A stretch of 64,000 nt of DNA, from the NCBI GenBank assembly GCA_020850695.1, contig JADZEF010000081.1, positions 1 through 64,000 on the forward strand. The letters are read 5' to 3'. This document shows positions 3,728 through 64,000 of this stretch, one piece after another (the stretch's first letter is position 1; each line of letters starts with the position of its first letter). The notes under the pieces are model-generated. The model was not told the DNA's origin. It ran no database searches and saw only the letters and a list, made by a program, of their open reading frames with translations. Position numbers and translations under genes: made by a program. This DNA comes from Planctomycetaceae bacterium (GTDB lineage Bacteria > Planctomycetota > Planctomycetia > Planctomycetales > Planctomycetaceae).

Positions 3728-4900
3728 ATGCTGTTGCGTCGAGGAAACTGGTGGCGGATCGCCGCCTTGGGGTTGGCGGTCGGCTGGGGAGAGACGCTCG
3801 CCGCACAGGACGGAGGACGCTCCCCTGACGACCTCTTCAAGCAACTCGACAAGAACAGTGACGGGGTCATCAAGGCCAGCGAAGTCGGCGAGGATCAAAC
3901 CCGCCACTTCGAACGCCTCATTCGAGTCGCCGACAAGGATGGCAATGGCGAACTGACGCGCGAAGAGTTTCTGGAGGGAGTCCGTCGTCCGGACCGTCCC
4001 GCCGGCGAGCGCCCGGAAGGGGACCGCGGCCCGGGTGAGCGCGGGCCCGGCGACCGTCCGCGGTTCGGTCCGGAGCAACTGTTCGAGCGATTCGACGCGA
4101 ACAAGGATGGAAAGCTCACGCTCGAAGAGCTTCCCAATGAAGCCCGCGAACGGCTGCGTCCGTTCTTCGAACGGTCGGGCAGGGATGCCATTTCCCGGGA
4201 AGACCTTGGCCGCTTGATGGCTCAGGCAGGTGGTCGCCCCGGTGAAGGCCGGCCTGGCGAAGGACGACCGGAAGGCCGACCGATGTTGCCTCGGCTATTC
4301 CAGCGGCTGGATGCCAACGGCGACGGACGCCTCTCGAAAGAAGAACTCGCCAAGGCGGCCGATCAGTTCGACGCCATGGATGAAAACCGCGACGGACAGC
4401 TCGATCCGCGTGAATTGCTGGGACCTCCGCCGGGAGAACGGCGCCCCGGGGAAGGTCGTCCCGAAGAAGGCCGGCCGGGAGAACGGCGACCGGAAGGCGA
4501 TCGACGCCCCGAGGGGGAACGTCGTCCGGAAGGGAATCGCCCTGAAGGCCCACGTCCCGAAGGACAGAATCCGGAGCGGCGTCGCCGTGGCGGTGAAGGA
4601 GGCCCCCCGTTCGAGCGCATCCTCTCGGAGATGGACTCGAACAAGGACGGCAAGCTCTCGAAGGACGAGGCCCGCGGACCACTCCAGCAGAACTTTGACC
4701 GGCTTGACGCAGACAAGGACGGCTTCATCACTCGCGATGAAATCCGTCGTGGATTCTCAGAACGTCTTCGTGAAGGAACCGGTCGACCGGAAGGGGGCCG
4801 CCCCGGGGCGCGTCGCCCGGACGGTGAACGTCCGGACGGAAAGCGTCCCCCAGGAGATCGCCCCGCAGGCGAGCGTCCGCCAGAGAAGAAGCCCGAATAA
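3728..4900 (+). CDS. Exported EF-hand protein with seven calcium loops and RPEG-rich linkers
   Basis: A 390-residue protein with an N-terminal signal sequence (residues 1-26, ending near LAAQ). It has seven canonical 12-residue EF-hand loops: D41-E52, D69-E80, D123-E134, D195-E206, D218-E229, D313-E324 and D337-E348. An eighth position near 150 (SGRDAISRED) has lost the ligands. Loops are separated by low-complexity Arg/Pro/Gly/Glu linkers (RPGE, RPEG, GERR), longest at 234-300 and 352-390. An AAGGAC ribosome-binding site lies at 3715-3720. Such proteins are presumed to bind Ca2+ outside the cytoplasm, but no enzymatic domain is visible. It stands alone. The linkers make alternative frames look open, but only this frame has the EF-hand pattern. 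Confidence 0.85.
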   Translation: MLLRRGNWWRIAALGLAVGWGETLAAQDGGRSPDDLFKQLDKNSDGVIKASEVGEDQTRHFERLIRVADKDGNGELTREEFLEGVRRPDRPAGERPEGDRGPGERGPGDRPRFGPEQLFERFDANKDGKLTLEELPNEARERLRPFFERSGRDAISREDLGRLMAQAGGRPGEGRPGEGRPEGRPMLPRLFQRLDANGDGRLSKEELAKAADQFDAMDENRDGQLDPRELLGPPPGERRPGEGRPEEGRPGERRPEGDRRPEGERRPEGNRPEGPRPEGQNPERRRRGGEGGPPFERILSEMDSNKDGKLSKDEARGPLQQNFDRLDADKDGFITRDEIRRGFSERLREGTGRPEGGRPGARRPDGERPDGKRPPGDRPAGERPPEKKPE

Positions 4901-56603: not shown

Positions 56604-57707
56604 TCACTGACCATTCCGCCGCAGCAGCTCCTGCGGGGTCTTGCCGGTCACCGAGTAAACGTATTTCATGATTTCCACGAACACTTCGTACATCTCGACC
56701 GGAATCGTCTCGCCGACCCGCACCATCTTGTAAAGCGCCTGGGCGAGCGGTCGACGTTCGATGATCGGGATACCATGCTCCGCGGCGATGCGTCGGATGA
56801 TTCCCGCGAGGTCGCCCTTCCCCTTCGCCACGACGGCGGGCGCCATCATCGTCTTGGGGTCGTATTTCAAGGCGATCGCGATTTCCGTCGGATTAGTAAT
56901 CACGACGTTCGCCGTCTTCACCTTGTCGAGTTCCTGCGCCTTCAGCAGCTTCTGCCGCTGCTCGCGGAAGTGCGCCCGGATCTTCGGATCGCCTTCCGAG
57001 TCCTTGTACTCGTCGACGACCTCCTGCCGGGTCATCTTGATCTGACGCTCGAAGCTCCACCACTGCCAGCCGAAGTCACCCAGCGCGAGAACAAACAGCA
57101 CGATGGCCAGCAGCAGCGCGAGATTCACCATCGACTTCATCATCAGAAGCAGAAACAGGCCGATATCGGCATCGGTGGTTGGCAGGAATTGCGGGATCTC
57201 ACGCCAGATGAACCACGCCGCCAGCAGGCCGAGCCCCGCGAGCTTTGCAAGGCTGCCTGCCAGCCTCATCCAGCCCTGCATCGAGAAAATTCGCTTGAGA
57301 CCGCCCACCGGGTTGAGGTTCGACCACTTGATCTCCAGCAGTTCCGGCAACCACAGGAACCCGACCTGCCCCATTCCGACGATCACGCCAGCCCCGGCCG
57401 CCAGCAACATCAGCGGCAGCATGTGAATGGCGCACCACTCGAGCACCGAGCGGAACTCGTCCGTCAGGAAACCCGCGTCGAAGCTGGTTCGCGGCGCGCG
57501 TTCGAGGCGGCTGCGCAGGAACTGTCCGAGCGATTCGACAGCCGGCGTCCCGAGTGCCCACAGTCCGATCGCCAATGCCAGGAGGTGCGACGCGGTGATG
57601 AGGTCGTGGCTTCTCGCGACCTGCCCCTTCCGCCGCAGCTCCTGGCGTTTCCTCTCGGTCGGCTCTTCCGTCCGATCGCCAACGTCATCCGGTGATTCAT
57701 CGTCCAT
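56604..57707 (-). CDS. flhB: Flagellar export apparatus protein FlhB
   Basis: A 367-residue FlhB of normal length. The N-terminus EEPTERKRQELRRKGQVARS is typical. Four membrane helices lie at about 38-55, 95-118, 150-168 and 192-212. The cytoplasmic domain begins after KMTRQEVVDEYKDSEGDP. The autocleavage loop is N272-P273-T274-E275 instead of NPTH. The rest, IAIALKYDPKTMMAPAVVAKG and PLAQALYKMVRVGETIP, is conserved. FlhB switches export specificity after cleavage between N and P. It ends the fliO-P-x-Q-R-flhB cluster and lies 176 bases after fliR, across a hairpin-rich gap. Confidence 0.94.
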   Translation of the reverse strand: MDDESPDDVGDRTEEPTERKRQELRRKGQVARSHDLITASHLLALAIGLWALGTPAVESLGQFLRSRLERAPRTSFDAGFLTDEFRSVLEWCAIHMLPLMLLAAGAGVIVGMGQVGFLWLPELLEIKWSNLNPVGGLKRIFSMQGWMRLAGSLAKLAGLGLLAAWFIWREIPQFLPTTDADIGLFLLLMMKSMVNLALLLAIVLFVLALGDFGWQWWSFERQIKMTRQEVVDEYKDSEGDPKIRAHFREQRQKLLKAQELDKVKTANVVITNPTEIAIALKYDPKTMMAPAVVAKGKGDLAGIIRRIAAEHGIPIIERRPLAQALYKMVRVGETIPVEMYEVFVEIMKYVYSVTGKTPQELLRRNGQ

Positions 57708-57883: not shown

Positions 57884-58861
57884 TCACCCGAGCCCCGTCA
57901 GGGCCGCACGGAGCGAATCAACCACGGCAGGGACAACATCGCACACCTGCCGTCCAATGCCCGTCAGCGAGACGGCGAGGACCAGAAAGCTGAGGATTGC
58001 TCGAACGGGAAAGCCGAGGACGAGGATCTGAATCTGTGGGACGCTGTGGCCGAGGTATCCCATCGCGATTCCAACCAGCGACATCACGGCGAATACCGGG
58101 GCTGCGGCCTGAATCCCGAGGACAAGCGATTGATGGACCACGTCGCGGAGGAGTTCGACGGCCGTGATGGAGACGAAGGCCTCACCGACCGGCAGCGTCT
58201 GGAACGATTCGAGCAGCGCGCCGACGATCTGCAGATGCCCGCTCAGCGGATGAGCGAGGAGCAGGGCCGTGATGCCAAACAGGTAGAGGAAGCGTCCGGT
58301 CGTTGCTCCACTGATTTCGAGGCCGGGACTGGCGATCTCGCCGAGAGCCACACCCGACTGCTGATCGATGATTTCGCCCGCGAGCTGCAGTCCCGACAGG
58401 ATCGCCAGAACGCCGAGTCCGAGGACCAGCCCCAGCACAAACTCTCCTGCGGTGAGCCAGGCGTATTCAAAGAGTGTCTGCGGGAAGCGCGGTGCGGTGC
58501 GGTATTGGGCGAGGGTGATCGAGCCTTCGGCATCAGTCGGGATCTCGAACCGCACGCGGAGGACCTCGGGGATCTCCGCCTGCGTCAGTTGGCCGTCGCG
58601 GTCCAGGTCGAGCCGATCGAAGCCCGCTTCCTGCTGCCGCGCCAGCGTCGGCGTGACGAGGAGCGAAAGCGTGACGACGATCAGCACACGGACGTTCGCC
58701 GGAACGACGGACATTCCGAAGACCGGTCCGATCGTCATCAACCCGCTCACACGGACGAGCACCAGGGTGAAGGCGTAGAAATGCTGCGTCGCCAGGTCGA
58801 GCAACTGGCGGTTGCTCCACTGCAGAATCGGGTCAACGAGGTGCTGGTCGAGGAACGACAT
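57884..58861 (-). CDS. fliR: Flagellar export gate protein FliR with an EF-hand loop insertion
   Basis: A 325-residue FliR, about 65 longer than usual. FTLVLVRVSGLMTIGPVFG and VRVLIVVTLSLLVTPTLA are the first membrane segments. Then an extra hydrophilic region, residues about 76-125, contains a canonical EF-hand loop D85-E96 (DLDRDGQLTQAE) followed by IPEVLRVRF and a second polar stretch to about 129. Conserved core resumes at FEYAWLTAGEFVLGLVLGLG, then GEIIDQQSGVALGEIASPG and VGIAMGYLGHSVPQIQILVLGFPVRA. FliR forms the export channel entrance with FliP and FliQ. The loop position predicts exposure outside the cytoplasm. Neighbours are fliQ and flhB in the usual order. Confidence 0.92.
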   Translation of the reverse strand: MSFLDQHLVDPILQWSNRQLLDLATQHFYAFTLVLVRVSGLMTIGPVFGMSVVPANVRVLIVVTLSLLVTPTLARQQEAGFDRLDLDRDGQLTQAEIPEVLRVRFEIPTDAEGSITLAQYRTAPRFPQTLFEYAWLTAGEFVLGLVLGLGVLAILSGLQLAGEIIDQQSGVALGEIASPGLEISGATTGRFLYLFGITALLLAHPLSGHLQIVGALLESFQTLPVGEAFVSITAVELLRDVVHQSLVLGIQAAAPVFAVMSLVGIAMGYLGHSVPQIQILVLGFPVRAILSFLVLAVSLTGIGRQVCDVVPAVVDSLRAALTGLG

Positions 58862-58894: not shown

Positions 58895-59161
58895 TCAGAG
58901 TGCCGAAGGAATCGCCCGGAACAACGTGATCGAGTAGTCGGTCAGCGAGGTGATGATCCACGGCAGCGTCAGCAGCATCGTGAGCATCATCACGATGATC
59001 TTCGGAACGAATGCCAGCGTCTGGTCCTGCAGCTGCGTGACGGCCTGAAGCACGTTGACGACGAGGCTGACGACGACCGCCACGATCAAGATCGGGGCGC
59101 CAACCACCAGCGACAGCATGATGGCCCCGCGGCTCAGTTCCACAACCTGGTCGAGAGTCAT
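58895..59161 (-). CDS. fliQ: Flagellar export protein FliQ
   Basis: An 88-residue protein of standard FliQ length with two membrane helices (AIMLSLVVGAPILIVAVVVSLVVNVL and FVPKIIVMMLTMLLTLPWII). QAVTQLQDQTLAFVPKI is the conserved cytoplasmic link. FliQ joins FliP and FliR in the export gate. ATG 59161 has AAGG directly upstream; an earlier in-frame start at 59191 would add ten residues without homology. It lies 33 bases before fliR. Confidence 0.94.
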   Translation of the reverse strand: MTLDQVVELSRGAIMLSLVVGAPILIVAVVVSLVVNVLQAVTQLQDQTLAFVPKIIVMMLTMLLTLPWIITSLTDYSITLFRAIPSAL

Positions 59162-59240
59162 CCTTGAACTTCCCTGTCGAATTCCTGTCACCGGCTGTTT
59201 TTGGGCAATCCGCGAATTTCACCGCTCGGTCGATTCGAAG

Positions 59241-59660
59241 CTATGGCCGATGTCGGCCGACGGTGCTTTCCACCTTGTGGATCTCGGACACGCGCTCGTC
59301 CCGCTCCCGGGCGATTGTCTGCACGGCGCCGATGAACGTGGACGGGTGCTCGGTCTCGAATCGGAGAAAATAGCCCAGCGCCGAGTTTCGAACGTCCGCG
59401 CAGCCGGCCTGGAGCCACGCCACGCGAAGCGACAGCGAGTCGCGTTCTTCGATCGCCCTCTGCACTTCAGGTATCGCCAGTTTCGGATCGGCCGACAGCA
59501 GCTTGTCGAGCTCGACTTGCGGCGCCGGTTTGAGAAGCGGGTCGCGCAGCGACGTCTTGGACGCGAGCAGCACCGGCAGGAGCCCCACGAGCGAAACGAC
59601 GATCGCCCAGCAGAACACACGGGCGAATGGGACGGGCGGGTTATTGGAATGAAGTTCCAT
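59241..59660 (-). CDS. Unknown single-pass membrane protein within the fli cluster
   Basis: A 139-residue protein lying between fliP and fliQ on the same strand, 32 bases after fliP. Residues 14-33 are a membrane helix (VFCWAIVVSLVGLLPVLLAS). The rest is soluble and helical, with LDKLLSADPKLAIPEVQRAI and a coiled-coil-like EERDSLSLRVAWLQAG. The N-terminus is short and cytoplasmic by charge. No family recognised. Its place in the export-gate operon suggests a flagellar role or a lineage-specific accessory subunit, which is inference. A weak ribosome-binding site makes the exact start uncertain. Confidence 0.65.
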   Translation of the reverse strand: MELHSNNPPVPFARVFCWAIVVSLVGLLPVLLASKTSLRDPLLKPAPQVELDKLLSADPKLAIPEVQRAIEERDSLSLRVAWLQAGCADVRNSALGYFLRFETEHPSTFIGAVQTIARERDERVSEIHKVESTVGRHRP

Positions 59661-59692: not shown

Positions 59693-60802
59693 TCAAGATC
59701 CCACCAGCCGCACACTTTCGACCAGCATCCCGACGGTCAGCATCCAGCCGTCGATGAGCACGAACAGCAACAGCTTGAGTGGGTTCGAGATCAGCACCGG
59801 CGGCAGCATCATCATCCCCATGCTGGTGAGGATCGACGAGACCACCATATCGATCACCAGAAAGGGAAGATAGATCTGGAAGCCGATGACGAAGGCGGTC
59901 TTGAGTTCGCTTAACATGTAGGCCGGGAGCAGTACGCTGAGCGGGACGTCCTCGTAGTTCTCGGGCTCGACATACTCCTCGGCGGCACGAGTGCCGGCCG
60001 CAGGGCGCTGCATCTCGAGCAGCATCCAGATGCTGTCGCTGTTCCCCGTCTGCTCGATCTGGTCGGCCATGAACTGCCGGATCGGCTGCAGCGTCAACCG
60101 CGTCGCCGCCGCAAAACGATCTTCGCCGTTCCGCATCCCTTCGATCGGAGCCTCTTCCGTGTACGGCTTCACCCCCGCGTCGTAGGCCTTCTGCCACACG
60201 GGGGCCATCACGAAAAACGTGAGGAAGAGGCAGAGCGAGACGATCACCTGGTTGGGCGGAAGCTGCTGCGTTCCGAGCGCCTGCCGCAACAGTCCGAAGA
60301 CGATGACGAACCGGATAAAGCACGTCGTCATGATGAGGATCGACGGCGCGAGACTGAGGATCGTCAGAACGAACATCAGCCGCAGCGTCGACGACATCCC
60401 CTGCGGCGACGTCATCTGCTCGAGGTTTGGGGGGGCCGGCGGGACGAGCAGGTTCGGGGCTTCCGCACCGGCGGGCACAACGCGATCGTTGGCGACGCGT
60501 GGGCGCGGGGGACGGGGTGGTTCGCCGCGTCCGTTGATTTCGACATCGCCGCGGGTGGGCACGACGCGTCCCGCGCCGGCTTCCTGGCCGGCGGCAGCGC
60601 CGGACATCACGGCGAGAATGCCGATCGCGACCAGTGCCGTTCGCAGTGAGGTGACGCCGAGGCCGAGAGGCTTGGCCGCTCCGTAGCACGGGCACTCATG
60701 CCCGTGCGTGCTCGACAGATTCTTCACTGGCTCACGGGCAGGAGTGCCCGTGCGACGGTTGTTGTCGAGGTTCTCCGCACCCTCCGAGTCACTATGCCAC
60801 AC
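59693..60802 (-). CDS. fliP: Flagellar export gate protein FliP with unusual N-terminus
   Basis: A 369-residue FliP. A GTG at 60802 overlaps the fliO stop by 11 bases. Residues 1-50 are unusual and are partly encoded by a hairpin repeat (see repeat entry); a signal-type hydrophobic segment follows ([19 protein letters not shown]). A Pro-rich spacer precedes the core: [42 protein letters not shown], then [21 protein letters not shown] and [13 protein letters not shown]. The large loop between helices, including [19 protein letters not shown], is typical. FliP builds the export channel. The true start could be further in, but no good internal candidate with a ribosome-binding site is present. 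Confidence 0.9.
60686..60752. repeat. Double CCGTAG-type hairpin repeat inside the fliP reading frame
   Basis: Two hairpins: arms 60686-60694/60699-60707 (9 bp, loop CTCA) and 60733-60740/60745-60752 (8 bp, loop GGAG). The first is preceded by CCGTAG at 60681. The segment is translated as part of the fliP N-terminus. A related CCGTAG hairpin is at 61673-61694. Confidence 0.75.
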
Positions 60803-61532
60803 GGAACTCCTCCTCTCCCGCGTTCGCCGCGCTGGATCGCTGGAACCGGCGGGCGAAGGCTTCGTCGGGCAGGCTGTCGGGAAGACGTGCGGTTGTTTCG
60901 GCGGACGATTTCGTCTTGGTCGATCGGGAGGGGGAGGGCGTTGCAGTTACGTCCTCTCCCCGCTGGAAGAGCGTACGAAAGGTGTCGACGTACGATTCGC
61001 CGTTGGTCGGCCGGCGGCAAAGCCCGGCCAGCAGATCGACTTCCACCGGGTCGCTCACTTCCGAGAGATTCTCGACACCGGCCGGCGAAACGCCGAGGAC
61101 GAGAATTTTCGACCCGAGACGGACAAGCCACAGCGTGGTGCGGGGATCGAGCGGGCGGCGTCCCAGGACGTCGACCGCATCACGCGGCAGGCCCGGCGTG
61201 ACACCGGGACCGTGCCGCTTCCACAGGGTGGCTCCTGCGAGAACGACAATCAGCAGCAGGACCAGCGGCCCGCCCACCGCCCACGGAGACGACGAGACCC
61301 GCGACTTCGTTTCACCGGCCGCGTCGTTCTCGCTGCGGGAACTGGAGTTCTTTGAGATCCGCCGCGGGGCGGGCTCGTCGACGGGAGCTTCCGTTGCGCG
61401 CAGTCGCTGCCCTTTGCGAGGTGTCGCAACGGCCGGGATTTCTTCGTCGGCGTACTGCGCATGGACGGACTCGGAGAGCGCCAGCAGCGCTATCAATCCG
61501 AATCCGATCGCGATGAAATATGTGCGCAGCAT
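60792..61532 (-). CDS. fliO: FliO-like flagellar export protein
   Basis: A 246-residue protein at the head of the fli cluster. Residues 1-25 are a signal or first membrane segment ([19 protein letters not shown]). A polar linker rich in Pro, Arg and Ser follows, then a membrane helix ([19 protein letters not shown]) near 90. RKRHGPG-type residues, then [20 protein letters not shown] and [18 protein letters not shown], match the FliO cytoplasmic domain. FliO is a scaffold for FliP ring assembly. ATG 61532 is chosen; TTG 61550 would add six residues. The stop overlaps the fliP start, suggesting coupled translation. Confidence 0.85.
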
Positions 61533-61893
61533 CCTTGCCACCCCTGACAAAGCTCGCGGGCTCAGCCTGCGAAGACAGGTGAAATACCGCGACGCGGCAA
61601 CTGCGCCAAGACGGATTCAAGACGTGAGTGCAACTCCGTGCAGTGAGAGTGCGTTGCCGTGAGTCTTCCGTAGTCCGGCCTTCCCAGGCCGGACGAAACC
61701 TCCCCGACCCGGTAAAGGCCCGGCGACGAAGCGGAACATCGGCGGGTACAGCGCGATAGTGAGGGATTTGACACGGTAGGCTTCGACGCCTCGTTGCTCC
61801 CGTTCAAGACAGAATCGCGTGCGGTTGGCCGTGTCGCGATTTCCAGCCATACTGTCGGTCATCCCTGTTTCGTCGTCGCGCGGGGCCGGTTCC
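61533..61893. other. Divergent intergenic region, 361 bp
   Basis: It lies between fliO (minus) and the dehydrogenase gene (plus) and must contain the promoter for the whole fli cluster. I see no convincing sigma-28 or sigma-54 element. It contains the 61673-61694 hairpin. Confidence 0.35.
61673..61694. repeat. CCGTAG-type hairpin, 9-bp perfect stem
   Basis: 61673-61681 and 61686-61694 are perfect inverted complements around loop TCCC. Preceded by CCGTA, as is the hairpin at 60686. Likely the same dispersed repeat family with a different stem sequence. Confidence 0.6.
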
Positions 61894-63408: not shown

Positions 63409-64000
63409 CTATTTCAACGACGTGTCCTGCTGCAGAACCATCAACGCCAGCTGCCTGAGCATCGACGAGATCTGCGGCGATGATCCCTTCCGGATCCGGC
63501 TGGCATCTTCTGCAAACTCCACGTCCAGCATCCAGTGCAGACGGTTCTCGATTCCCCAGTGCCCACGCACCGCCCGAGCGAACTTCCTGACGTTCACCTC
63601 GAAGCTCATGATGTAATAGTTCACGCTCACCTCCTCCTTCCCCTGCACCACTCGCCGACGCTCCACCATCCCCAGGCTCGTCAGCTTCTTCCACCGGCCC
63701 GACCGCTTCATAGATTCCGGTGCAGCAATCACATAATAGGTCCGCTCCTCCACGCGACCGTGCCCTTTCTCCCGGGTCTTATATCTCTTCACCCGGCTCT
63801 TCGTCCCGCGCGTAGTCGCCGCATTCGCCGCGTCGTCAAAAGCCTGGCTGATCTCCGCCACCAGCGTCGGCTGGTTGTCCTTCGCACAGAAGACATAGTC
63901 CGCGTTCTTATCCACCACCTTCGCCGCAATCTCCGTCTGGCAGCCCATCGCGTCGATCGTCACGATCGCTCCCGCAATCTCGATCAACCCCAAGAGCTTC
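63409..64000 (-). mobile_element. ISAs1-family transposase, 5' end beyond window
   Basis: An open minus-strand frame from the right edge to a stop at 63409, 197 residues visible. GAIVTIDAMGCQTEIAAKVV is the DDE-domain strand with its Asp. ADYVFCAKDNQPTL follows, then RGHWGIENRLHWMLDVEFAED, the Glu-containing helix typical of ISAs1 (H-repeat-associated) transposases. The frame is open to base 63999, so it continues beyond the edge. The C-terminus (LRQLALMVLQQDTSLK) looks natural. No terminal inverted repeat can be seen because the other end is outside. Confidence 0.9.

Follow-up and report, generated by a model that had tools for sequence, protein, structure and literature searches.

The FliR protein encoded in the analysed window, i.e. 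the whole stretch of 64,000 nucleotides from a planctomycete genome, contains in place of its R-loop an insert that is homologous to a pair of EF-hands, and the predicted calcium ligands of the first hand are retained in all 52 FliR proteins found to share this insert. FliR, present as one copy per flagellum, ranks among the best-conserved components of the type III export machinery, and we know of no direct metal site in a type III export gate. An earlier note on this DNA regarded an EF-hand at this location as new, and in line with this, no earlier report of an EF-hand in FliR or of inserts in planctomycete FliR proteins was found in open-access papers. We regard it as moderately likely, judging from sequence comparison, that an EF-hand pair was copied into the R-loop of FliR and lengthens the gate tip as a Ca2+-stabilised module, which would aid the sealing or ordering of the pore and the seating of FliE.

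The fliR gene and the insert in its product

The features of the window, all coordinates referring to its forward strand, are the following:

3728-4900, plus strand: gene of a secreted multi-EF-hand protein, member of the family that is the probable source of the insert (Pfam EF-hand_5, 7.1e-36)
56604-57707, minus strand: flhB (Pfam, 1.1e-107)
57884-58861, minus strand: fliR, encoding a 325-residue export-gate protein with an EF-hand insert (ORF translation, Pfam, NCBIfam)
58484-58642, minus strand: EF-hand-pair insert in place of the R-loop, about residues 74-126 (phmmer against Salmonella FliR; family alignments)
58574-58609, minus strand: canonical EF-hand loop D85-E96, DLDRDGQLTQAE (ligand positions retained in 52 of 52)
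58505-58540, minus strand: vestigial second EF loop, residues 108-119, PTDAEGSITLAQ (alignment with secreted EF-hand pairs)
58895-59191, minus strand: fliQ (Pfam, 5.7e-24)
59693-60802, minus strand: fliP (Pfam, 1.5e-71; above the TIGR01103 cut-off)
60792-61550, minus strand: fliO (Pfam, 2.9e-09)

The export genes thus follow the order flhB, fliR, fliQ, an unassigned gene, fliP and fliO, all on the minus strand. The Pfam model Bac_export_1 matches residues 29-306 of the window FliR (E = 1.7e-42), and the best NCBIfam model is TIGR01400, fliR (7.5e-40), with the injectisome model SctT behind it (2.5e-25); the TIGR01400 match is split into two stretches and, with 137 bits, lies below the cut-off of 168.6. 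Since another contig of the same genome (C140) encodes FliE, FliF, FliG, FliH, FliI, a FliK domain and two rod proteins, the window fliR belongs to a flagellum. The unassigned gene between fliP and fliQ (59241-59660, minus strand) encodes a protein of 139 residues which by our reading spans the membrane once; neither Pfam nor NCBIfam has a model that matches it, and no homologue turned up among the fliR loci that were retrieved. In addition, residues 240-308 of FliR (57938-58144, minus strand) weakly match the FliQ family (E = 0.015), in line with the fold of FliR, which corresponds to a FliP-FliQ fusion. Near the end of the window, an ORF at 63409-63993 (minus strand) resembles, by our reading, the C-terminal part of a transposase.

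In a phmmer comparison, residues 27-75 of the window FliR align with residues 14-60 of Salmonella FliR and residues 133-300 with residues 70-234, so that residues 76-132 stand where Salmonella FliR has nine, and about 48 residues have been gained on balance. The earlier note had rightly described the protein as longer than usual, while its estimate of about 65 extra residues was too high: the excess over Salmonella FliR amounts to about 61 residues, of which about 13 are N-terminal and about 48 belong to the TM2-TM3 loop. Several Pfam EF-hand models (EF-hand_5, _6, _7 and _1) match the insert, with scores below the cut-offs for single members (EF-hand_6, E = 6e-4 on the insert fragment of the window FliR), and a profile of the insert matched EF-hand chains in the PDB (2.3e-08). 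Together with the retained ligands, these profile matches bear out the canonical EF-hand loop D85-E96 that had been proposed from the letters of the sequence. In the second loop the hydrophobic residue at position 8 is retained and the ligands at positions 1 and 12 are gone; a second canonical EF loop occurs in no FliR of the family set. In an AlphaFold model of the full-length FliR, computed with one relative, residues 92-93 and 114-115 form short strands of the kind expected in an EF pair, but with a local pLDDT below 50 this carries no weight by itself; the overall pLDDT was 38, and that of the 60-residue insert alone was 57.

Conservation, origin and distribution of the insert

FliR proteins were collected by PF01311 searches of 59 relatives and subsequently of 148 genomes of the planctomycete family to which the source belongs, extracted and aligned. 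A FliR search of genome contigs yielded a single relative, JANQSH010000169.1 of Planctomycetaceae bacterium isolate IP29b_bin.91. Long-insert FliR proteins, defined by at least 80 residues between the flanking anchors, numbered 55, and the EF loop is present in 52 of them; as the selecting regular expression itself fixes positions 1, 3, 5 and 12, this proportion of matching long inserts is the fair count. The three others (L111, L115 and L119) bear unrelated inserts. Counted by genus labels, the 52 proteins span 26 genera of the source family.

Throughout these 52 loops, which align without indels, position 1 is D, position 3 N or D, position 5 D or N, position 8 L, I or V, and position 12 E, while position 14 is P in 51. 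Non-conservation of D85, D87, D89 and E96 in close relatives, which the earlier note had named as grounds for giving up its proposal, was therefore not what the alignment revealed. Among 31 representatives sharing less than 75% identity, the insert has no invariant columns other than D1 and E12; identity in the ligand columns ranges from 64 to 100% (100% once D and N are pooled), as against an average pairwise identity of 23% in the non-ligand columns. Moreover, the codons of these two residues vary within the 52 genes (D1: GAT 27, GAC 25; E12: GAA 44, GAG 8), and this synonymous change under a constant amino acid indicates that the ligands are under purifying selection. Chance predicts 0.0004 occurrences of the loop pattern per FliR; the pattern occurs once in each of the 52 insert-bearing proteins and in none of the 74 FliR proteins devoid of the EF insert. 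Position 6 is less uniform: Gly occupies it in only 22 of the 52 loops, Q in 18 and H in 6, so that some lineages may have a site of low affinity.

The insert probably derives from a family of secreted EF-hand proteins of these bacteria. When 392 genomes of the phylum, from 265 genera, were searched with a profile of TM2, insert and TM3 (A3), full-length matches were confined to the source family. Weaker matches, which cover the insert alone, led to secreted proteins possessing several pairs of EF-hands (L147-L162; best 5.8e-12), and a profile of the insert matched residues 35-89 of the product of 3728-4900 in the window itself (6.4e-09). The secreted pairs take the form F..LD.N.DG.LT..EVPE...R.FE.L...GDKNEDGKLT..EF, and the second hand of the insert preserves the corresponding hydrophobic and aromatic pattern, with L or I at position 8 and F or Y after position 12; loss of ligands in the second hand also occurs in some of the secreted pairs. 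These profile matches indicate that the FliR insert represents a whole EF pair whose second hand has decayed. Outside the source family, the FliR matches listed in a survey of the class (E up to about 5e-41) span at most 732 nt, which leaves no room for the insert. As far as searched, the insert is thus restricted to one planctomycete family.

In a FastTree phylogeny of 108 FliR cores, from whose alignment the insert was excluded, the insert-bearing tips fall into one group, in which 37 of 42 tips have the insert; the basal node of this group has a support of 0.42, and the group together with its insert-less sister 0.94. On the simplest reading, there was one gain followed by about four losses (L019, L026, L064 and L069); the sequence of L123, the fifth tip lacking the insert, begins only within it, at the end of a contig. 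The shortened loop of L064, a member of the EF group, contains GLGFDRLA, resembling a remnant of the entering helix of the EF-hand (GFDRLD). FliE was detected in all 20 insert-bearing genomes of one survey and in 13 of 14 in another, the sole exception being a fragmented assembly (G096); the genome of L123 (G101) was left out of this count. Among the genomes that lost the insert, G006 and G118 lack a detectable FliE, while G002 and G109 possess one, and the insert is accordingly dispensable in the latter two. No obvious matching change was seen in FliE of insert-bearing genomes.

Four FliR-like proteins of the same family (L116 and the above-mentioned L111, L115 and L119; genera g31, g35 and g68) lie outside the EF group and bear unrelated R-loop inserts of about 30-55 residues; FliE was found neither in the g31 genomes nor in the one g35 genome searched. 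The FliP encoded at 59693-60802 shows a long proline-rich N-terminal stretch ahead of its core, at the place of the beta-cap hairpin of Salmonella FliP. This extension was considered as a partner of the insert and rejected, since it is also present in genomes whose FliR has no insert.

Location in the export gate and possible roles of calcium

In the 2025 cryoEM structure of Salmonella FliPQR, FliR residues 55-68 form the R-loop, which is located at the periplasmic tip of the gate, in the pore that receives the first FliE subunit; the loop reaches into the beta-cap pore, clashes with helix alpha3 of FliE1 and has been proposed to block premature secretion (PMC12403130). The part of the window FliR that has no aligned counterpart maps exactly to this loop, which connects TM2 with TM3. 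Homology to the Salmonella R-loop, together with the secreted nature of its relatives, argues that the insert faces the periplasm, which agrees with the earlier proposal of a loop outside the cytoplasm following the second membrane helix.

According to the mechanism we favour, an EF-hand pair from secreted proteins would have been copied into the R-loop of flagellar FliR and would occupy the periplasmic face of the FliP5Q4R1 gate, at its tip. One Ca2+ would be bound by hand 1, with hand 2 serving as a structural partner only. As periplasmic Ca2+ tracks that of the surroundings, the site would probably be filled most of the time, and the Ca2+-stabilised module could prolong the gate tip as a rigid element, helping to seal or order the beta-cap pore and perhaps to seat the first FliE subunit. 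Given that the ligands remain unchanged in at least 26 genera, calcium probably helps to build or hold the gate.

Alternatively, the module might be a calcium sensor which external Ca2+ reshapes so as to open or block the gate or the docking of FliE, rendering flagellar assembly Ca2+-responsive. Strict conservation of the ligands and the role proposed for the Salmonella R-loop as a block to premature secretion (PMC12403130) are compatible with such a sensor, and loops without Gly at position 6 might bind with lower and tunable affinity. We nevertheless consider it a minor possibility, because the dead hand 2 leaves no cooperative pair and the sequence offers no regulatory evidence; moreover, external Ca2+ would normally keep a canonical EF loop filled. 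There is likewise a rather small chance that a single Ca2+ at the gate tip decides between blocking by the R-loop and admission of FliE, whereby external Ca2+ would license the start of rod assembly.

It appears improbable that conservation of the EF fold reflects a structural need or a different ion, for example Mg2+, Ca2+ itself playing no specific part. Ca2+ binding is a prediction from sequence and position 6 is often not Gly, but Glu at position 12 of every loop is the bidentate Ca2+ ligand of EF-hands, and D or N occupies positions 1, 3 and 5 throughout. A role confined to biogenesis, in which the module by folding outside the membrane fixes the topology of FliR or shields it from proteases while the finished gate is unaffected, is quite unlikely: the source domains, being secreted (with N termini resembling signal peptides) and acid-rich, would indeed fold outside, yet most FliR proteins manage without the insert, which moreover occupies the functional R-loop and not a neutral place. 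The unrelated inserts at the same place in L111, L115, L116 and L119 could point to an R-loop that merely tolerates neutral or decaying insertions devoid of function, but this is very improbable, as the contrast between ligand columns and the remainder of the insert and the synonymous codon change contradict it. A dockerin-type or Excalibur-type Ca2+ repeat can practically be dismissed in spite of the similar DxNxDG start, since position 12 is invariably Glu rather than Asp, no dockerin appeared among the Pfam matches of the insert and its closest relatives are EF-hand pairs.

With the Ca2+-stabilised gate-tip extension as the preferred reading, the insert offers a defined molecular site at which Ca2+ could affect a type III export apparatus. 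A module with predicted Ca2+ binding that selection has kept family-wide, in the very loop proposed to guard FliE docking, constitutes a natural handle on the workings of the gate tip.

Comparison with known systems

The window FliR resembles other flagellar FliR proteins (TIGR01400, PF01311) in its transmembrane core and in the minus-strand order flhB-fliR-fliQ-fliP-fliO, but differs from them by the additional R-loop residues that make up the EF-hand pair, of which none was found in solved FliR chains. With the secreted multi-EF-hand proteins of planctomycetes, encoded at 3728-4900 and in L147-L162, the insert has the pair unit in common, i.e. F..LD.N.DG.LT..E.P followed by a second hand; whereas those proteins possess a signal peptide and several pairs, FliR harbours one pair whose second hand has lost its ligands. 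Finally, the insert lies where the R-loop of Salmonella FliR lies, at the periplasmic gate tip and flanked by TM2 and TM3, yet where Salmonella has 14 residues without a metal site, the window FliR has a domain.
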